NCBI RefSeq assembly: GCF_000027225.1
Contig: NC_013892.1
Coordinates: forward strand, 2,914,001-2,978,000
Origin: Xenorhabdus bovienii SS-2004
Lineage (GTDB): Bacteria; Pseudomonadota; Gammaproteobacteria; Enterobacterales; Enterobacteriaceae
DNA length: 64,000 nucleotides
Direction: 5' to 3'
This document shows positions 19,763 through 52,032 of this stretch, one piece after another. Position 1 is the first letter of the stretch. Each line of letters begins with the position of its first letter. A program made the position numbers and the translations under genes. The notes under the pieces were generated by a model. It was not told the origin of the DNA, did not search any database, and worked only from the letters and a program-made list of their open reading frames with translations.

Positions 19763-20124
19763 TTTTAAGTATCTCCTTGCTTTTTTATGGTTTCAAGAAT
19801 CAATAATATTTATAATCATTAATCAATACCTCAACATATTCAGTGCGCTGAATATGTTTACCTCATATAAATTGGCAAGATAAATAAGAAACCTGCTGTT
19901 TTTTTCATTTTCCCACACTACAACAAGATCATAAGCAAAAGAAAGTTGGTAATCATTTATTAGCACCGTTATCCGAGGTGTTATGTAAATTGAGTGACTA
20001 ACGTCACATCCAAATAAATTTTTCTGATTAATGAAAGGTAAATGAAAGGTTTTATATCTATAAATGGTGTAGCCCAACAACTTGCCTGAGTTATCTCATT
20101 TACTGATACGATGAGAAGAAACAA
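19763..20124. promoter_or_regulatory. Divergent control region tctDE / tctC
   Basis: About 360 AT-rich bases between the divergent tctD and tctC genes. It should hold both promoters and TctD sites, but I could not define a repeat or -35/-10 pair with confidence. A frame of 85 codons on the minus strand has no good ribosome site and no known relatives. Confidence 0.4.
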
Positions 20125-46285: not shown

Positions 46286-47137
46286 ATGAGTATTCAAAAT
46301 AATAAGCCTGAGACACCATGCCCTTGTGACTGTGATCTTTTCGTGGTACCCAGTCGTAATTATGTAAAAGAATCTATTGAAGAACACGCCCAAAGCCGTA
46401 ATCACCCCAATGCAACACTACAGGATAAAGGTTTTGTTGTTCTGAGTAATGATGTCGGTAGTGATAGTGAAACTATGGCGGCAACACCAAAGGCAGTGAA
46501 AGTAACGTATAATTTGGCTAATACAGCTAATCAGAATGCCAGTAATGCGAATGACAATGCCAATACTCGTTTAGCAAAAGATCGGAATGGAGCTGATATA
46601 CCTGATAAAAAAGAGTTTGTTAAGAACCTTGGAATAGAGCCATTAATGGAAGGGTTGTCCTTACCTGTCGGCGTTCCTGTTCCCTGGCCTACAGAAACAC
46701 CGCCAGAAGGCTGGCTGATATGTAACGGTAACTCGTTTGATATAGTAAGATATCCGAAACTTGCCCTTGCTTATCCCTCTGGTGTACTACCCGATTTGCG
46801 AGGGGAGTTTATTCGCGGCTGGGATAATGGGCGAGGAGTGGACACTGGGCGACATCTGCTTTCTAATCAAGCAGCAGATATCGCTCCACATAGCCACAGA
46901 ATTAACCGCATGTGGTCCAGCTCAACTGCTGGAGCCGAGAATTTAGGTACAGGGAACCGCATTTTCAATAGCATCCAGGAAAACATTAACTACGGAGCTG
47001 ATCCTCGGGGATTGGGTATTGCTATAGGAATGGGTTCGGGTGGTTATGGTTACATGGATAATGCGGTTGCTAATTCAACAGGAACAGAAACCCGACCCCG
47101 CAACATAGCATTCAATTACATAGTAAGAGCCGCCTAA
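46286..47137 (+). CDS. Orphan phage tail-fibre protein with collar domain
   Basis: A 283-residue protein with the layout of short phage tail fibres: a fibre repeat region (ATPKAVKVTYNLANTANQNA, about residues 68-87), the NGADIPDKKEFVKNLGI joint common in enterobacterial tail fibres, and a C-terminal tail-collar domain (GVPVPWPTETPPEGWLICNG, LPDLRGEFIRGWDNGRG, RPRNIAFNYIVRA). GAGGGATTAAG precedes the ATG. No other tail gene or chaperone is near, so it is a stray remnant of a prophage or a phage-tail bacteriocin, yet its frame is intact. Confidence 0.85.
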   Translation: MSIQNNKPETPCPCDCDLFVVPSRNYVKESIEEHAQSRNHPNATLQDKGFVVLSNDVGSDSETMAATPKAVKVTYNLANTANQNASNANDNANTRLAKDRNGADIPDKKEFVKNLGIEPLMEGLSLPVGVPVPWPTETPPEGWLICNGNSFDIVRYPKLALAYPSGVLPDLRGEFIRGWDNGRGVDTGRHLLSNQAADIAPHSHRINRMWSSSTAGAENLGTGNRIFNSIQENINYGADPRGLGIAIGMGSGGYGYMDNAVANSTGTETRPRNIAFNYIVRAA

Positions 47138-47343: not shown

Positions 47344-48563
<1,220 letters not shown>

Positions 48564-48603: not shown

Positions 48604-48765
48604 TTCTATATCAGAACACTAATAATTTAATTTATTATTTTTCATTGGCAATTCCCTGACATAAAAAATCAATATTTACCCTAGTGACTAACTCAACTAT
48701 TATAGTTAGTATTCAAACGGGCCCAAAAAACACAAACATAACATCTAATAATAAAGGGGATAATC

Positions 48766-49833
48766 ATGAAAAATAATGAAATCAACAGATATAGCTTAAT
48801 CCCTCCATTTGTTTTAGAACACATCTCTAGCGATTGTGATGAGTGCTCTAATCATTATGTACTAAAAACATTAGATCATGTTCATCACTTAATGAATATC
48901 TCTATTGGAGAAGAGCTTTTACAACAGGAAAATGAAGTAGAATTTGATGATGAATTAAATCGAACTATCTACGATGCAGAATATGAAGAGATATTTCCAG
49001 GTGATAGGGTAGCACGACGCGAAGGTATGCCTGAGAGTGAGGATGTTGCTGTCAATGAAGCCTATGAGTATCTCGGTAAGACCCATGAATTCTACAAAAA
49101 AGTTTTTGGCCGTAATTCACTCGATAACAAAGGCATCAAGCTAGTCGCAACTGTACATTATGGTCAAAACTACATGAATGCATTTTGGTCTAGAAAACAG
49201 ATGGTTTTTGGCGATGGAGATAAAAGTGGAAAATATTTCAATCGCTTCACTTCTGCCATTGATGTTATAGCACATGAATTAACGCATGGTGTGATTGAGA
49301 GTGAAGCACGACTTTTTTATGCTTATCAATCTGGCGCGTTAAATGAATCCATCTCAGATGTGTTTGGTATTATGGTAAAACAGTACTTCGATAAACAAAA
49401 AGCCAGTGAATCCGATTGGCTTATCGGAAAAGGACTACTTGGATCTAAGTTTAATCCAGACAATAAACCGGATGTTGCCTTACGTACATTTGTAAATCCG
49501 GGAACGGCTTTTTCCGGAGACAAGCAAGTTGGTCATATGGATCAATATAAAGAGCTACCGTTCACAAAGGACAATGGCGGAGTTCATATATATTCTGGTA
49601 TTCCTAACAGAGCCTTTTATCTACTGGCAGTGGAGCTCGGTGGTTATTCATGGGAACGTGCAGGTAAAATCTGGTATGAAACGTTACTCGACGAACGTTT
49701 ATCTTCAGATGCCAATTTTGATGATTTTGCAGAATTAACCATTAAAAACGCTGAAAAATTATTTGATAAAGAAATTTCAGATATCGTGAATAATTGCTGG
49801 AGCAAAGTTGGGATTATCATTCCAACAAAATAA
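48766..49833 (+). CDS. prtS: Protealysin-type metalloprotease (M4 family)
   Basis: A 355-residue thermolysin-family protease without signal peptide, as for protealysin of Serratia and PrtS of Photorhabdus. The short propeptide (about residues 1-50) has IPPFVLEHI, the conserved PP motif. The zinc site is HELTHGVIE (about residues 169-177) with the third ligand in NESISDVFG; a second His of the family lies in HIYSGIPNRAFYLLA. AAAGGGGATAATC precedes the ATG. Family members cleave intracellular or insect proteins; PrtS is antigenic-peptide processing in insects, so a role against the insect host is possible. Confidence 0.92.
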   Translation: MKNNEINRYSLIPPFVLEHISSDCDECSNHYVLKTLDHVHHLMNISIGEELLQQENEVEFDDELNRTIYDAEYEEIFPGDRVARREGMPESEDVAVNEAYEYLGKTHEFYKKVFGRNSLDNKGIKLVATVHYGQNYMNAFWSRKQMVFGDGDKSGKYFNRFTSAIDVIAHELTHGVIESEARLFYAYQSGALNESISDVFGIMVKQYFDKQKASESDWLIGKGLLGSKFNPDNKPDVALRTFVNPGTAFSGDKQVGHMDQYKELPFTKDNGGVHIYSGIPNRAFYLLAVELGGYSWERAGKIWYETLLDERLSSDANFDDFAELTIKNAEKLFDKEISDIVNNCWSKVGIIIPTK

Positions 49834-49903
49834 TTAACACCAACATCAATATAATCATTAATACAATATCAATTATTATTAAACAGAATAATTGATATTA
49901 AAC

Positions 49904-49931
49904 AAGAAAGGGCTAAGGATAGCCCTTTCTT
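49904..49931 (+). terminator. Terminator after the protease gene
   Basis: AAGAAAGGGCTA and TAGCCCTTTCTT form a perfect 12-base stem with loop AGGA, about 70 bases after the stop. A near copy stands behind the propeptide gene at 50492. Confidence 0.85.
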
Positions 49932-50113
49932 AATATTTATAGCTCAATATATTTTAGATTTAGACTACCCTTGCATTAATACATTGATTTTAATAAAAAA
50001 ACATAGAAATACAATAAATTTACATTTCTACCAGTGACTAATATGATTATTTTAGCTAATATCTAAGTACCCTAAAACAGATACATATAACAACACACAA
50101 ACTGGTTAACATT

Positions 50114-50335
50114 ATGCGTAATAGTAAAATAGACAAGTACAATATCATTCCTCCCTATCTACTGGAATATATTGCCAATAATTGTGATGAAAATGACAGG
50201 GAATGTGTGATAAGGACGTTAAAACATGTTAATAATACAATGAAAAATTCAGCTAAAGAAGAGGAGGCGTTACATCCGGAAGATAATTTATCAACTGATA
50301 ATAAAAAGATAAATAAACCTGACAAGTTGCAATAA
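50114..50335 (+). CDS. Free-standing protealysin propeptide homologue
   Basis: A 73-residue protein whose first 46 residues match the propeptide of the protease gene just upstream at 20 positions by eye, including IIPPYLLEYI and CDE. The catalytic domain is missing; a charged Lys/Asp/Glu tail replaces it. The flanks are also copied: the sequence AGTGACTA lies 81 bases before this ATG and 83 before the protease ATG, and both genes end in a GGGCTA/TAGCCC terminator. It is either a duplicate reduced by deletion or a retained small protein that folds with or inhibits the protease. Function unproven. Confidence 0.75.
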   Translation: MRNSKIDKYNIIPPYLLEYIANNCDENDRECVIRTLKHVNNTMKNSAKEEEALHPEDNLSTDNKKINKPDKLQ

Positions 50336-50491
50336 TAAAAAATAATTATACATTAATAAATTGAATTAGTTTTGGCTGTAAATTGATAACAAATTTCCAT
50401 TCAGACAGTAGTAATGAAATTATTTTATTACCTTAAAAAGAATCAAAAATAAATTAATAAGATAGCTAAGTAAATCATATATATCAGTAAC

Positions 50492-50519
50492 AATAAAGGG
50501 CTAAAAATAGCCCTTTATT
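50492..50519 (+). terminator. Terminator after the propeptide gene
   Basis: AATAAAGGGCTA and TAGCCCTTTATT form a perfect 12-base stem with loop AAAA, followed by TTCATG. It resembles the terminator behind the protease gene in size and core. It may also serve the convergent der gene. Confidence 0.85.
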
Positions 50520-50541: not shown

Positions 50542-52032
50542 TTAACGCTTTTTCAAATGCGACATTAAACGTTTACGTTTACGAAGCTGTGTGGCCGTCA
50601 AAGTATTCTTCTTATCCGCATAAGGGTTAGTCCCTTCTTTAAATTGAATGCGAATAGGTGTTCCCATGACTTTTAAAGAGCGACGGAAGTAGTTCATCAA
50701 GTAACGTTTATAAGAATCAGGCAAATTTGTCACCTGATTGCCGTGGATCACCACGATAGGTGGGTTATATCCCCCTGCGTGGGCATATTTCATTTTAACT
50801 CTGCGCCCACGTATCATCGGCGGCTGGTGATCTTCTTCTGCCATATGCATGATACGAGTCAGCATGGAAGTACTAACGCGATGGGTAGCACTTTCGTAAG
50901 CTTCCAGAATCGAGTCAAATAAGTTGCCAACCCCACTGCCATGCAGCGCAGAAATAAAGTGAACACGAGCAAAATCGACAAAACCGAGACGCAAATCCAG
51001 CATATCCTTAACGTGATCTCTGTCTTCCTGGCTCATGCCATCCCACTTGTTGACCGCAATAACCAAAGAGCGCCCACTATTGAGAATAAAACCGAGCAGA
51101 GAGAGATCCTGATCAGAAACCCCTTCACGGGCATCAACTATCAGCAAAACAACATTAGCATCTTCAATGGCCTGAAGCGTTTTGATAACAGAAAATTTCT
51201 CAACCGTTTCGGTTACTTTGCCACGTTTACGAACCCCTGCTGTATCAATCAGGATATATTCGCGGCCATCACGCTCCATTGGAATATAAATACTGTCTCG
51301 GGTAGTTCCCGGCATGTCATAAACAACGACTCGCTCTTCGCCCAGAATACGGTTAGTCAATGTGGATTTACCCACGTTTGGACGACCAACAATCGCCAAT
51401 TTCAGCGGCAAAGTAGTAGGATCAAAAACGGCCTCCTTCTCTTCCTCTTCAGCAGCCTCCAATTCAGCCTGCTCTATTTCAGACCAATAAGCTGCATTGG
51501 CTTCTTCTTCCGTTAATTCAACTTCTTCCGTTTTCTCTTTTTCGGAGAATGGCAACAACACATGCTCGATCAGTTGTGTCACACCACGGCCGTGGGAAGC
51601 GGCGATGGAATATATATCCCCCAACCCCAGTGAGTAGAACTCAGGGATAGCAGTATCGGTATCAATACCATCGGTTTTATTCGCTACCAAAAAGGTGGCT
51701 TTTTCACGGCTACGCAGATGTTTTGCAATCGCATGATCGGCTGGCATCATTCCGGATCTGGCATCGACCATAAACAGGACGATATCCGCTTCTTCAATTG
51801 CCATCAAAGATTGCGCAGCCATATGCGTTTCTACGCCATCTTCTGTACCATCGATACCACCGGTATCAATGATGATGAATTCCTGCCCTTCAACCTCTGC
51901 CCGTCCATATTTACGATCACGGGTCAAACCAGGGAAATCCGCTACCAACGCATCTCGGGTTCGGGTTAAACGGTTAAATAAGGTGGATTTTCCGACATTC
52001 GGGCGCCCAACCAGCGCAACAACAGGTATCAT
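50542..52032 (-). CDS. der: Ribosome biogenesis GTPase Der
   Basis: A 496-residue protein with two GTPase domains, each with GRPNVGKST (residues 8-16 and about 210-218) and a G3 motif (DTGG, DTAG) plus NKTD and NKWD. An acidic linker lies between them (about residues 165-200), and a KH-like domain with a basic tail ([13 protein letters not shown]) closes the protein. It acts in 50S subunit assembly. It follows bamB as in E. coli. Confidence 0.97.

Follow-up and report, generated by a model that had tools for sequence, protein, structure and literature searches.

What is the propeptide of a protease doing as a gene of its own, directly behind a complete protease of the same kind? The question is raised by a 64,000-nucleotide stretch of the genome of Xenorhabdus bovienii SS-2004 (contig NC_013892.1), a member of a genus of insect-killing bacteria; this stretch, positions 2914001-2978000 of a single-contig genome of 4,225,498 bases, will be called the window. 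Here, an M4 protease of the protealysin type (P1, 48766..49833, plus strand, 355 residues) is followed by a small gene (50114..50335, plus strand, 73 residues) that resembles only the propeptide. Our reading, to which we assign a probability of about 0.65, is that the small gene, which arose on the Xenorhabdus stem in the slot of the inhibitor emfourin, encodes a stand-alone propeptide and that this propeptide acts in trans to inhibit the M4 proteases beside it.

The identity of both genes can be read from their profile matches. P1, the likely target, matches Peptidase_M4 (7.7e-30), Peptidase_M4_C (1.8e-45), and PLN_propep (PF16485; 1.9e-9, 37.5 bits), the last through its own propeptide at residues 9-43 (48790..48894, plus strand); its HELTH motif lies at residues 170-174. 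The small protein matches PLN_propep with an E value of 1.4e-17 and 63.6 bits, where the cut-off is 28.1, across profile positions 1-42 of 43, and so scores higher than the propeptide of P1 itself. Its domain spans residues 9-50 (50138..50263, plus strand), including the segment I11-I12-P13-P14-Y-L-L, and is followed by a variable charged tail at residues 51-73 (50264..50332, plus strand) that is predicted to be mostly disordered. A Peptidase_M4 match is absent from the 73-residue frame, which thus lacks the HExxH catalytic domain of a protealysin-like M4 protease, and emfourin (PF20242) is not among its profile matches up to an E value of 1. An earlier sequence-only reading had described just such a propeptide-only frame beside a complete protease, with 20 of the first 46 residues shared with P1; the profile matches confirm the former, and the latter figure, which was counted by eye, holds. 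The frame is already annotated, since databases label the Xenorhabdus proteins as "protealysin propeptide domain-containing protein" or "peptidase M4".

The next question is whether such a gene is a peculiarity of one strain. Propeptide matches occur in all 30 Xenorhabdus genomes searched, many of them within proteases, and gene maps place the small gene itself in 28 of the 30. These maps comprise 32 stretches, namely the window, 19 named loci, and 12 further ones, with two genomes covered twice. For the remaining two genomes (G008 and G015), the presence of the gene cannot be told because their contigs end 124 and 86 bases past P1, before the slot of the small gene; the propeptide search of these genomes gave no other well-scoring small frame. 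In every one of the 28 loci, the small gene is preceded by hemF and one or two proteases, and in 27 it is followed by a gene that we take to be der, X. koppenhoeferi being the one locus without it mapped, on a contig that ends before der. In the window, the borders of this conserved slot are hemF (47655..48563, plus strand; Coprogen_oxidas, 5.1e-135) on the left and the presumed der (50542..52032, minus strand), assigned by reading frame and synteny, on the right. The small proteins range from 63 to 80 residues, and those of X. bovienii form protein clusters of 19 members at 78% identity and 3 members at 97%. In one of the set, from X. beddingii (L084:5342-5551), the propeptide part is immediately followed by three internal repeats of QLMKN.

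Two kinds of protease, P1 and P2, share these loci, and each is present at full length in 25 of the 28. P1 is missing from X. szentirmaii, X. poinarii, and the metagenome-assembled genome (MAG) G024, and P2 from the window genome and X. bovienii T228; the small gene is kept in all five. HE(L/M)TH, ALNES(I/V)SD-type, and GGVH motifs occur in all 50 full-length proteases (47 by strict pattern, 3 by reading), and each of the 28 loci has at least one intact protease gene beside the small gene. In G007 (L081:4937-7078), P2 is interrupted by about 1.1 kb holding two frames that look transposase-like by eye; this leaves a natural 130-residue frame of propeptide plus linker, with P1 and the small gene intact.

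Persistence of a frame is one thing and selection on its product another, and the sequence-only reading had proposed that a broken or neutrally evolving frame in relatives would speak against a function. The frame is open in 28 of 28 loci. For its propeptide part, a codon model (28 rows) gave a ratio of nonsynonymous to synonymous rates (dN/dS, omega) of 0.233; the log-likelihood is -1396.3 and falls to -1452.2 when omega is fixed at 1 with the tree unchanged, twice the difference being 112. Because this fit is clearly better than that at omega 1, the propeptide part is held by purifying selection, and the separate propeptide-only gene beside the protease is thus both conserved and selected in relatives. 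It is held somewhat less tightly than the cis propeptides, which have codon-model omegas of 0.13 (P1) and 0.18 (P2) and are likewise under purifying selection; pairwise Nei-Gojobori (NG86) medians run in the same order, at 0.24 for the small gene (171 unsaturated of 378 pairs), 0.17 for P1, and 0.21 for P2. The tail, from residue 47 to the end, has a codon-model omega of 0.44 (-1554.3 versus -1570.6) on a doubtful alignment and an NG86 median of 0.98. A decaying relic of a protease copy would account for the derivation of the gene from a protease gene and for its fast-evolving tail, but a decayed pseudogene does not keep 28 open frames with an omega of 0.23 in the propeptide part, and, provided that the codon model does not mislead, we reject it as extremely unlikely.

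The residues that are kept say more about what is being selected. Identical in all 28 small proteins are I11, P14, L17, C24, D28, T35, and L36; residue 12 is I or V in all 28, and P13 and H38 are each found in 27. The PF16485 pattern of a PPL motif preceded by hydrophobic P1'/P2' residues is therefore retained in the small proteins, the motif being that described for the protealysin propeptide in PMC6778150. The same source describes stepwise self-cleavage upstream of PPL, which brings up a decoy substrate or timer: the small protein would mainly be cleaved at N10-I11 and delay the protease without a stable complex. The positions of first self-cleavage upstream of PPL are indeed kept hydrophobic (I11 in 28 of 28, with N at residue 10 in 19 of 28), but the helical part after the motif is conserved too (T35, L36, and H38, as above), beyond the needs of a substrate, and we consider a decoy very improbable. 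Nearly as improbable is a partner other than the M4 proteases, for which the propeptide fold would have been recruited. The small proteins do have residues of their own, such as N at position 40 in 25 of 28 where 49 of 50 proteases have Y, H, or F; the PPL-type motif is kept, however, and the linkage to proteases is strict.

Structure prediction gives similar helices for the two propeptides, but the model of the small protein has no fold match of its own in the Protein Data Bank. The AlphaFold2 model of the small protein (mean predicted local distance difference test, pLDDT, 71) has helices at 14-23 and 26-53, with blocks 11-40 above 90 and residues 57-73 under 50, and the model of P1 (mean pLDDT 89) has propeptide helices at 14-21 and 26-44. 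The best Protein Data Bank match of the P1 model is 2vqx, the protealysin precursor of Serratia proteamaculans, and a profile of the small proteins (32 rows) aligns with residues 6-43 of 2vqx, that is, SVIPPYML and the helices that follow, at an E value of 4.3e-5. In that structure, the PPL motif reportedly contacts the S' subsites and the propeptide is said to block the substrate site.

The reading that needs the fewest assumptions is inhibition in trans by the binding mode of the cis propeptide. The small protein would probably fold as the same two-helix unit, and its I-I-P-P-Y-L-L segment would enter the active site on the primed side, in the manner of the attached propeptide of an enzyme not yet activated, presumably in the cytoplasm. 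Since it is not linked to a catalytic domain, it would be able to act on the mature enzyme, supplied from its own promoter.

Does the locus suggest why such a protein should exist? In Serratia, protealysin is restrained by emfourin, a product of the same operon that binds 1:1 at the active-site region; when emfourin is removed, extracts cleave 65% of actin instead of 40%, and FtsZ declines (PMC9505478). The sequence-only reading saw no emfourin at the Xenorhabdus locus, and this is borne out: there is none in the whole genome of the window strain up to an E value of 10, and none over the cut-off in the 30 Xenorhabdus genomes. Rows of 12-17 bits in 13 of the 30 were considered as emfourin elsewhere in the genome and rejected, all being under the cut-off of 27 and several falling in frames of 1050 residues. 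Among 291 genomes of the family outside Xenorhabdus, 49 match the small-protein profile of 26 rows, all in frames of at least 146 residues; 48 of these have emfourin over the cut-off on the same contig, 1037-1416 bases away, and a short propeptide frame beside protealysin was found in none of the 49. The figure of 49 is a lower bound on protealysin carriers, since diverged propeptides escape the profile: PF16485 matches occur in G172, G174, and G266, none of which it picks up, and it finds nothing in 29 of 77 genomes with emfourin. The one genome of the 49 without emfourin (G042, L110:3973-5472) has a protealysin-type protease directly before der and neither emfourin nor a short propeptide gene.

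In two Photorhabdus-like genomes of genus g138, the gene order is hemF, protease, emfourin, der; the protease of one of them shares 94% identity with a protein of Photorhabdus luminescens. The window has hemF, protease, small gene, and der, so that the small gene stands directly after the protealysin gene, as emfourin does. It likely does the same job as emfourin. We think it somewhat better than an even bet that the inhibitor was swapped, in that a duplicated M4 protease gene was cut down to its propeptide, became a genus-wide trans inhibitor (perhaps an immunity factor), and displaced emfourin.

Two alternatives should be kept in mind at this point. The first is a folding helper: in the manner of an intramolecular chaperone, the free propeptide would make P1 and P2 more abundant or more stable and would not be the resting inhibitor. 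Conservation throughout the propeptide part would fit this, but P1 and P2 keep their own propeptides under the purifying selection reported above, and related genera have an inhibitor gene in this slot, which makes a helper unlikely. The second, which we hold to be distinctly less plausible again, is an immunity factor guarding the cell against protealysin-type enzymes of kin or competitors, with the same binding mode and another target. Such a role has been proposed for emfourin (PMC9505478), and the small gene is kept whichever protease paralogue is lost; set against this is the intact protease gene that adjoins it in every locus.

Several points weigh against a trans-acting inhibitor and should be taken together. 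P1 and P2 each already carry a cis propeptide, and the binding and activity of the small protein are what we infer from its likeness and setting. Its model alone gave no fold match in the Protein Data Bank with Foldseek or VIA-align. X. innexi and X. stockiae lack the promoter-like block discussed below within 160 bases upstream. G042, having neither gene, indicates that an inhibitor gene is not strictly needed. Finally, the emfourin and Xenorhabdus counts share ancestry, and the contrast between them amounts to one evolutionary replacement event.

Where did the small gene come from? The sequence-only reading took it for a copy of the transcription unit of its neighbour, with the catalytic domain lost, and this part is not supported. 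In a propeptide tree of 83 rows and only 50 columns, midpoint-rooted and with bootstrap values that are not settled, P1 (100/99) and P2 (98/96) are each recovered as one group, with the small genes outside either; a further split (97/93) sets all three off from the five outgroup rows, of which two are Photorhabdus-like. The small genes do not form one group (three changes; one group in 2% of bootstrap trees). Mean propeptide identity is 0.53 between small genes and P2 and 0.47 between small genes and P1, and to the outgroup it is 0.40 (small), 0.37 (P1), and 0.34 (P2). They are thus closer to P2, which the window genome lacks, than to P1. A recent duplicate of the neighbouring protease is rejected because the small genes lie apart in the tree and because their split, judged from these sequences, appears to be old, on the Xenorhabdus stem and before the spread of the genus. 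A plausible course is that the protealysin gene multiplied on that stem, giving rise to P1, P2, and a third copy that kept only the propeptide and would now occupy the slot in which related genera keep the unrelated emfourin. A coherent remnant of the catalytic domain was not found in the 400 bases 3' of the small gene at the 28 loci; the best match there had an E value of 5.7e-4, on the reverse strand of one species, and the next 0.02.

The flanking signals deserve caution, as they were part of the argument for duplication. The similar promoter stretch seen before both genes holds, with AGTGACTA starting 83 and 81 bases before the ATGs of the protease and the small frame, a likeness qualified by a third AGTGACTAA in the window at 19993. 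The promoter-like blocks are TGACT-N17-TAGTAT before P1 (48685..48712, plus strand) and TGACT-N17-TAATAT before the small gene (50035..50062, plus strand). TGACT-N17-TANTAT, a pattern chosen after seeing the data and expected 0.01-0.02 times by base shuffles, precedes the small gene in 21 of 28 cases, P1 in 21 of 25, and P2 in 1 of 25, which suggests a separate, P1-like promoter for the small gene. A scan for the generic sigma-70 consensus was no better than chance, with 12 sites against 12.0 in shuffles. In X. griffiniae BMMCB (L041:4450-4519), a CATAA repeat of 13.8 copies separates the promoter-like block from the small-gene start; the copy number could vary and alter expression. In two small-gene upstreams (L047 and L050) and one P1 upstream (L037), the block is replaced by a similar stretch, roughly GTGA...AGC(C)A(G/A)(C/T)AAAGAAGCA, which looks like a repeated mobile element.

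The terminators fare differently. GGGCTA/TAGCCC inverted repeats are present after both genes, as a terminator-like stem 3' of P1 (49904..49931, plus strand), reported by a terminator scan, and as a repeat between the small gene and the convergent der (50492..50519, plus strand), which the scan did not report and whose core was found by pattern and full arms by eye. These are the only two matches to GGGCTA-N3-6-TAGCCC in the window (0 in shuffles). Across loci, GGGC(T/C)...(A/G)GCCC stems occur within 400 bases 3' of the small gene in 17 of 28, of P1 in 5 of 25, and of P2 in 0 of 25, and the GGGCT version of the P1 stem occurs in only 2 of 25 loci, both X. bovienii. As the stems are uncommon after P1 and absent after P2, the shared terminator is not general and we reject it as a trace of a duplicated unit. 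The trans-acting propeptide proposed by the sequence-only reading is thus retained in the main, with binding and inhibition kept conditional, and the copied transcription unit is dropped. On the far side of hemF, a phage tail-collar/tail-fibre protein (46286-47137) indicates that prophage remains border the conserved slot.

Stand-alone propeptides were also sought more widely. Among 398 genomes of the phylum, the only short-frame PF16485 match over the cut-off was that of the window, with three more below it in frames of 22-45 residues. A protein search with a profile (A1) built from 26 of the 28 small proteins, all 28 having been used in the selection tests, returned 32 clusters, including 27 from Xenorhabdus, the window's own, and one MAG labelled Enterobacteriaceae. 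A protein search with 25 cis propeptides gave 62 short proteins, 9 labelled partial and mostly with 1-5 members; it is no proof of absence, since the known Xenorhabdus small proteins were not returned. One cluster (P0171) has 80 members, a 103-residue "partial" protealysin propeptide protein of Enterobacter hormaechei, which may come from a single lineage with a truncated protease gene. Plasmids gave only one weak match, from Hymenobacter, at an E value of 0.4.

If our reading is true, a stand-alone propeptide that inhibits a thermolysin-like metalloprotease would be described here for the first time, to judge from the open papers searched; no stand-alone M4 propeptide was found in those open-licence PubMed Central papers. 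It would show how the propeptide of a protease can be turned into an inhibitor of that protease and take the place of an unrelated one at a single locus. The host's own FtsZ, RecA, and OmpX are substrates of protealysin (PMC9505478), and the restraint of this enzyme by the cell is therefore a practical question. A gene-encoded M4 inhibitor of about 50 residues would offer a useful starting point against thermolysin-like proteases, and a ready test set exists in 28 natural small proteins, each with one or two neighbouring proteases, and a sister group that keeps emfourin.

How does the small protein compare with known systems? RhpC of Pseudomonas savastanoi is likewise a small protein beside an M4 protease, RhpP, whose proteolysis of HrpL it lowers, but it is described as a specific chaperone of RhpP (PMC6490944) and is not a propeptide. 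Emfourin is small too, and its gene comes right behind that of the protease in the hemF-der slot of the two g138 genomes, but it belongs to an unrelated sequence family. The protealysin propeptide (PF16485; 2vqx) is homologous, with a Pfam match over the cut-off and two helices in the same predicted order, and differs in that the Xenorhabdus protein is a separate gene product with its own tail and no catalytic domain.

Another comparison is with the established stand-alone inhibitors of subtilases, such as SUB1-ProM (Plasmodium), POIA1 (Pleurotus), PBI2 (yeast), and SPI-1 (Arabidopsis). In these, the propeptide is a protein of its own and inhibits the protease (PMC6993865). Like such stand-alone propeptide inhibitors, the Xenorhabdus protein has its own gene for the propeptide only, intact across a clade. 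SUB1-ProM is a close parallel, being genus-wide and syntenic with its proteases (PMC6993865). Theirs is, however, another protease class and fold (subtilase, I9), whereas the Xenorhabdus gene is bacterial and a recognisable sequence relative of the propeptide of the protease beside it.
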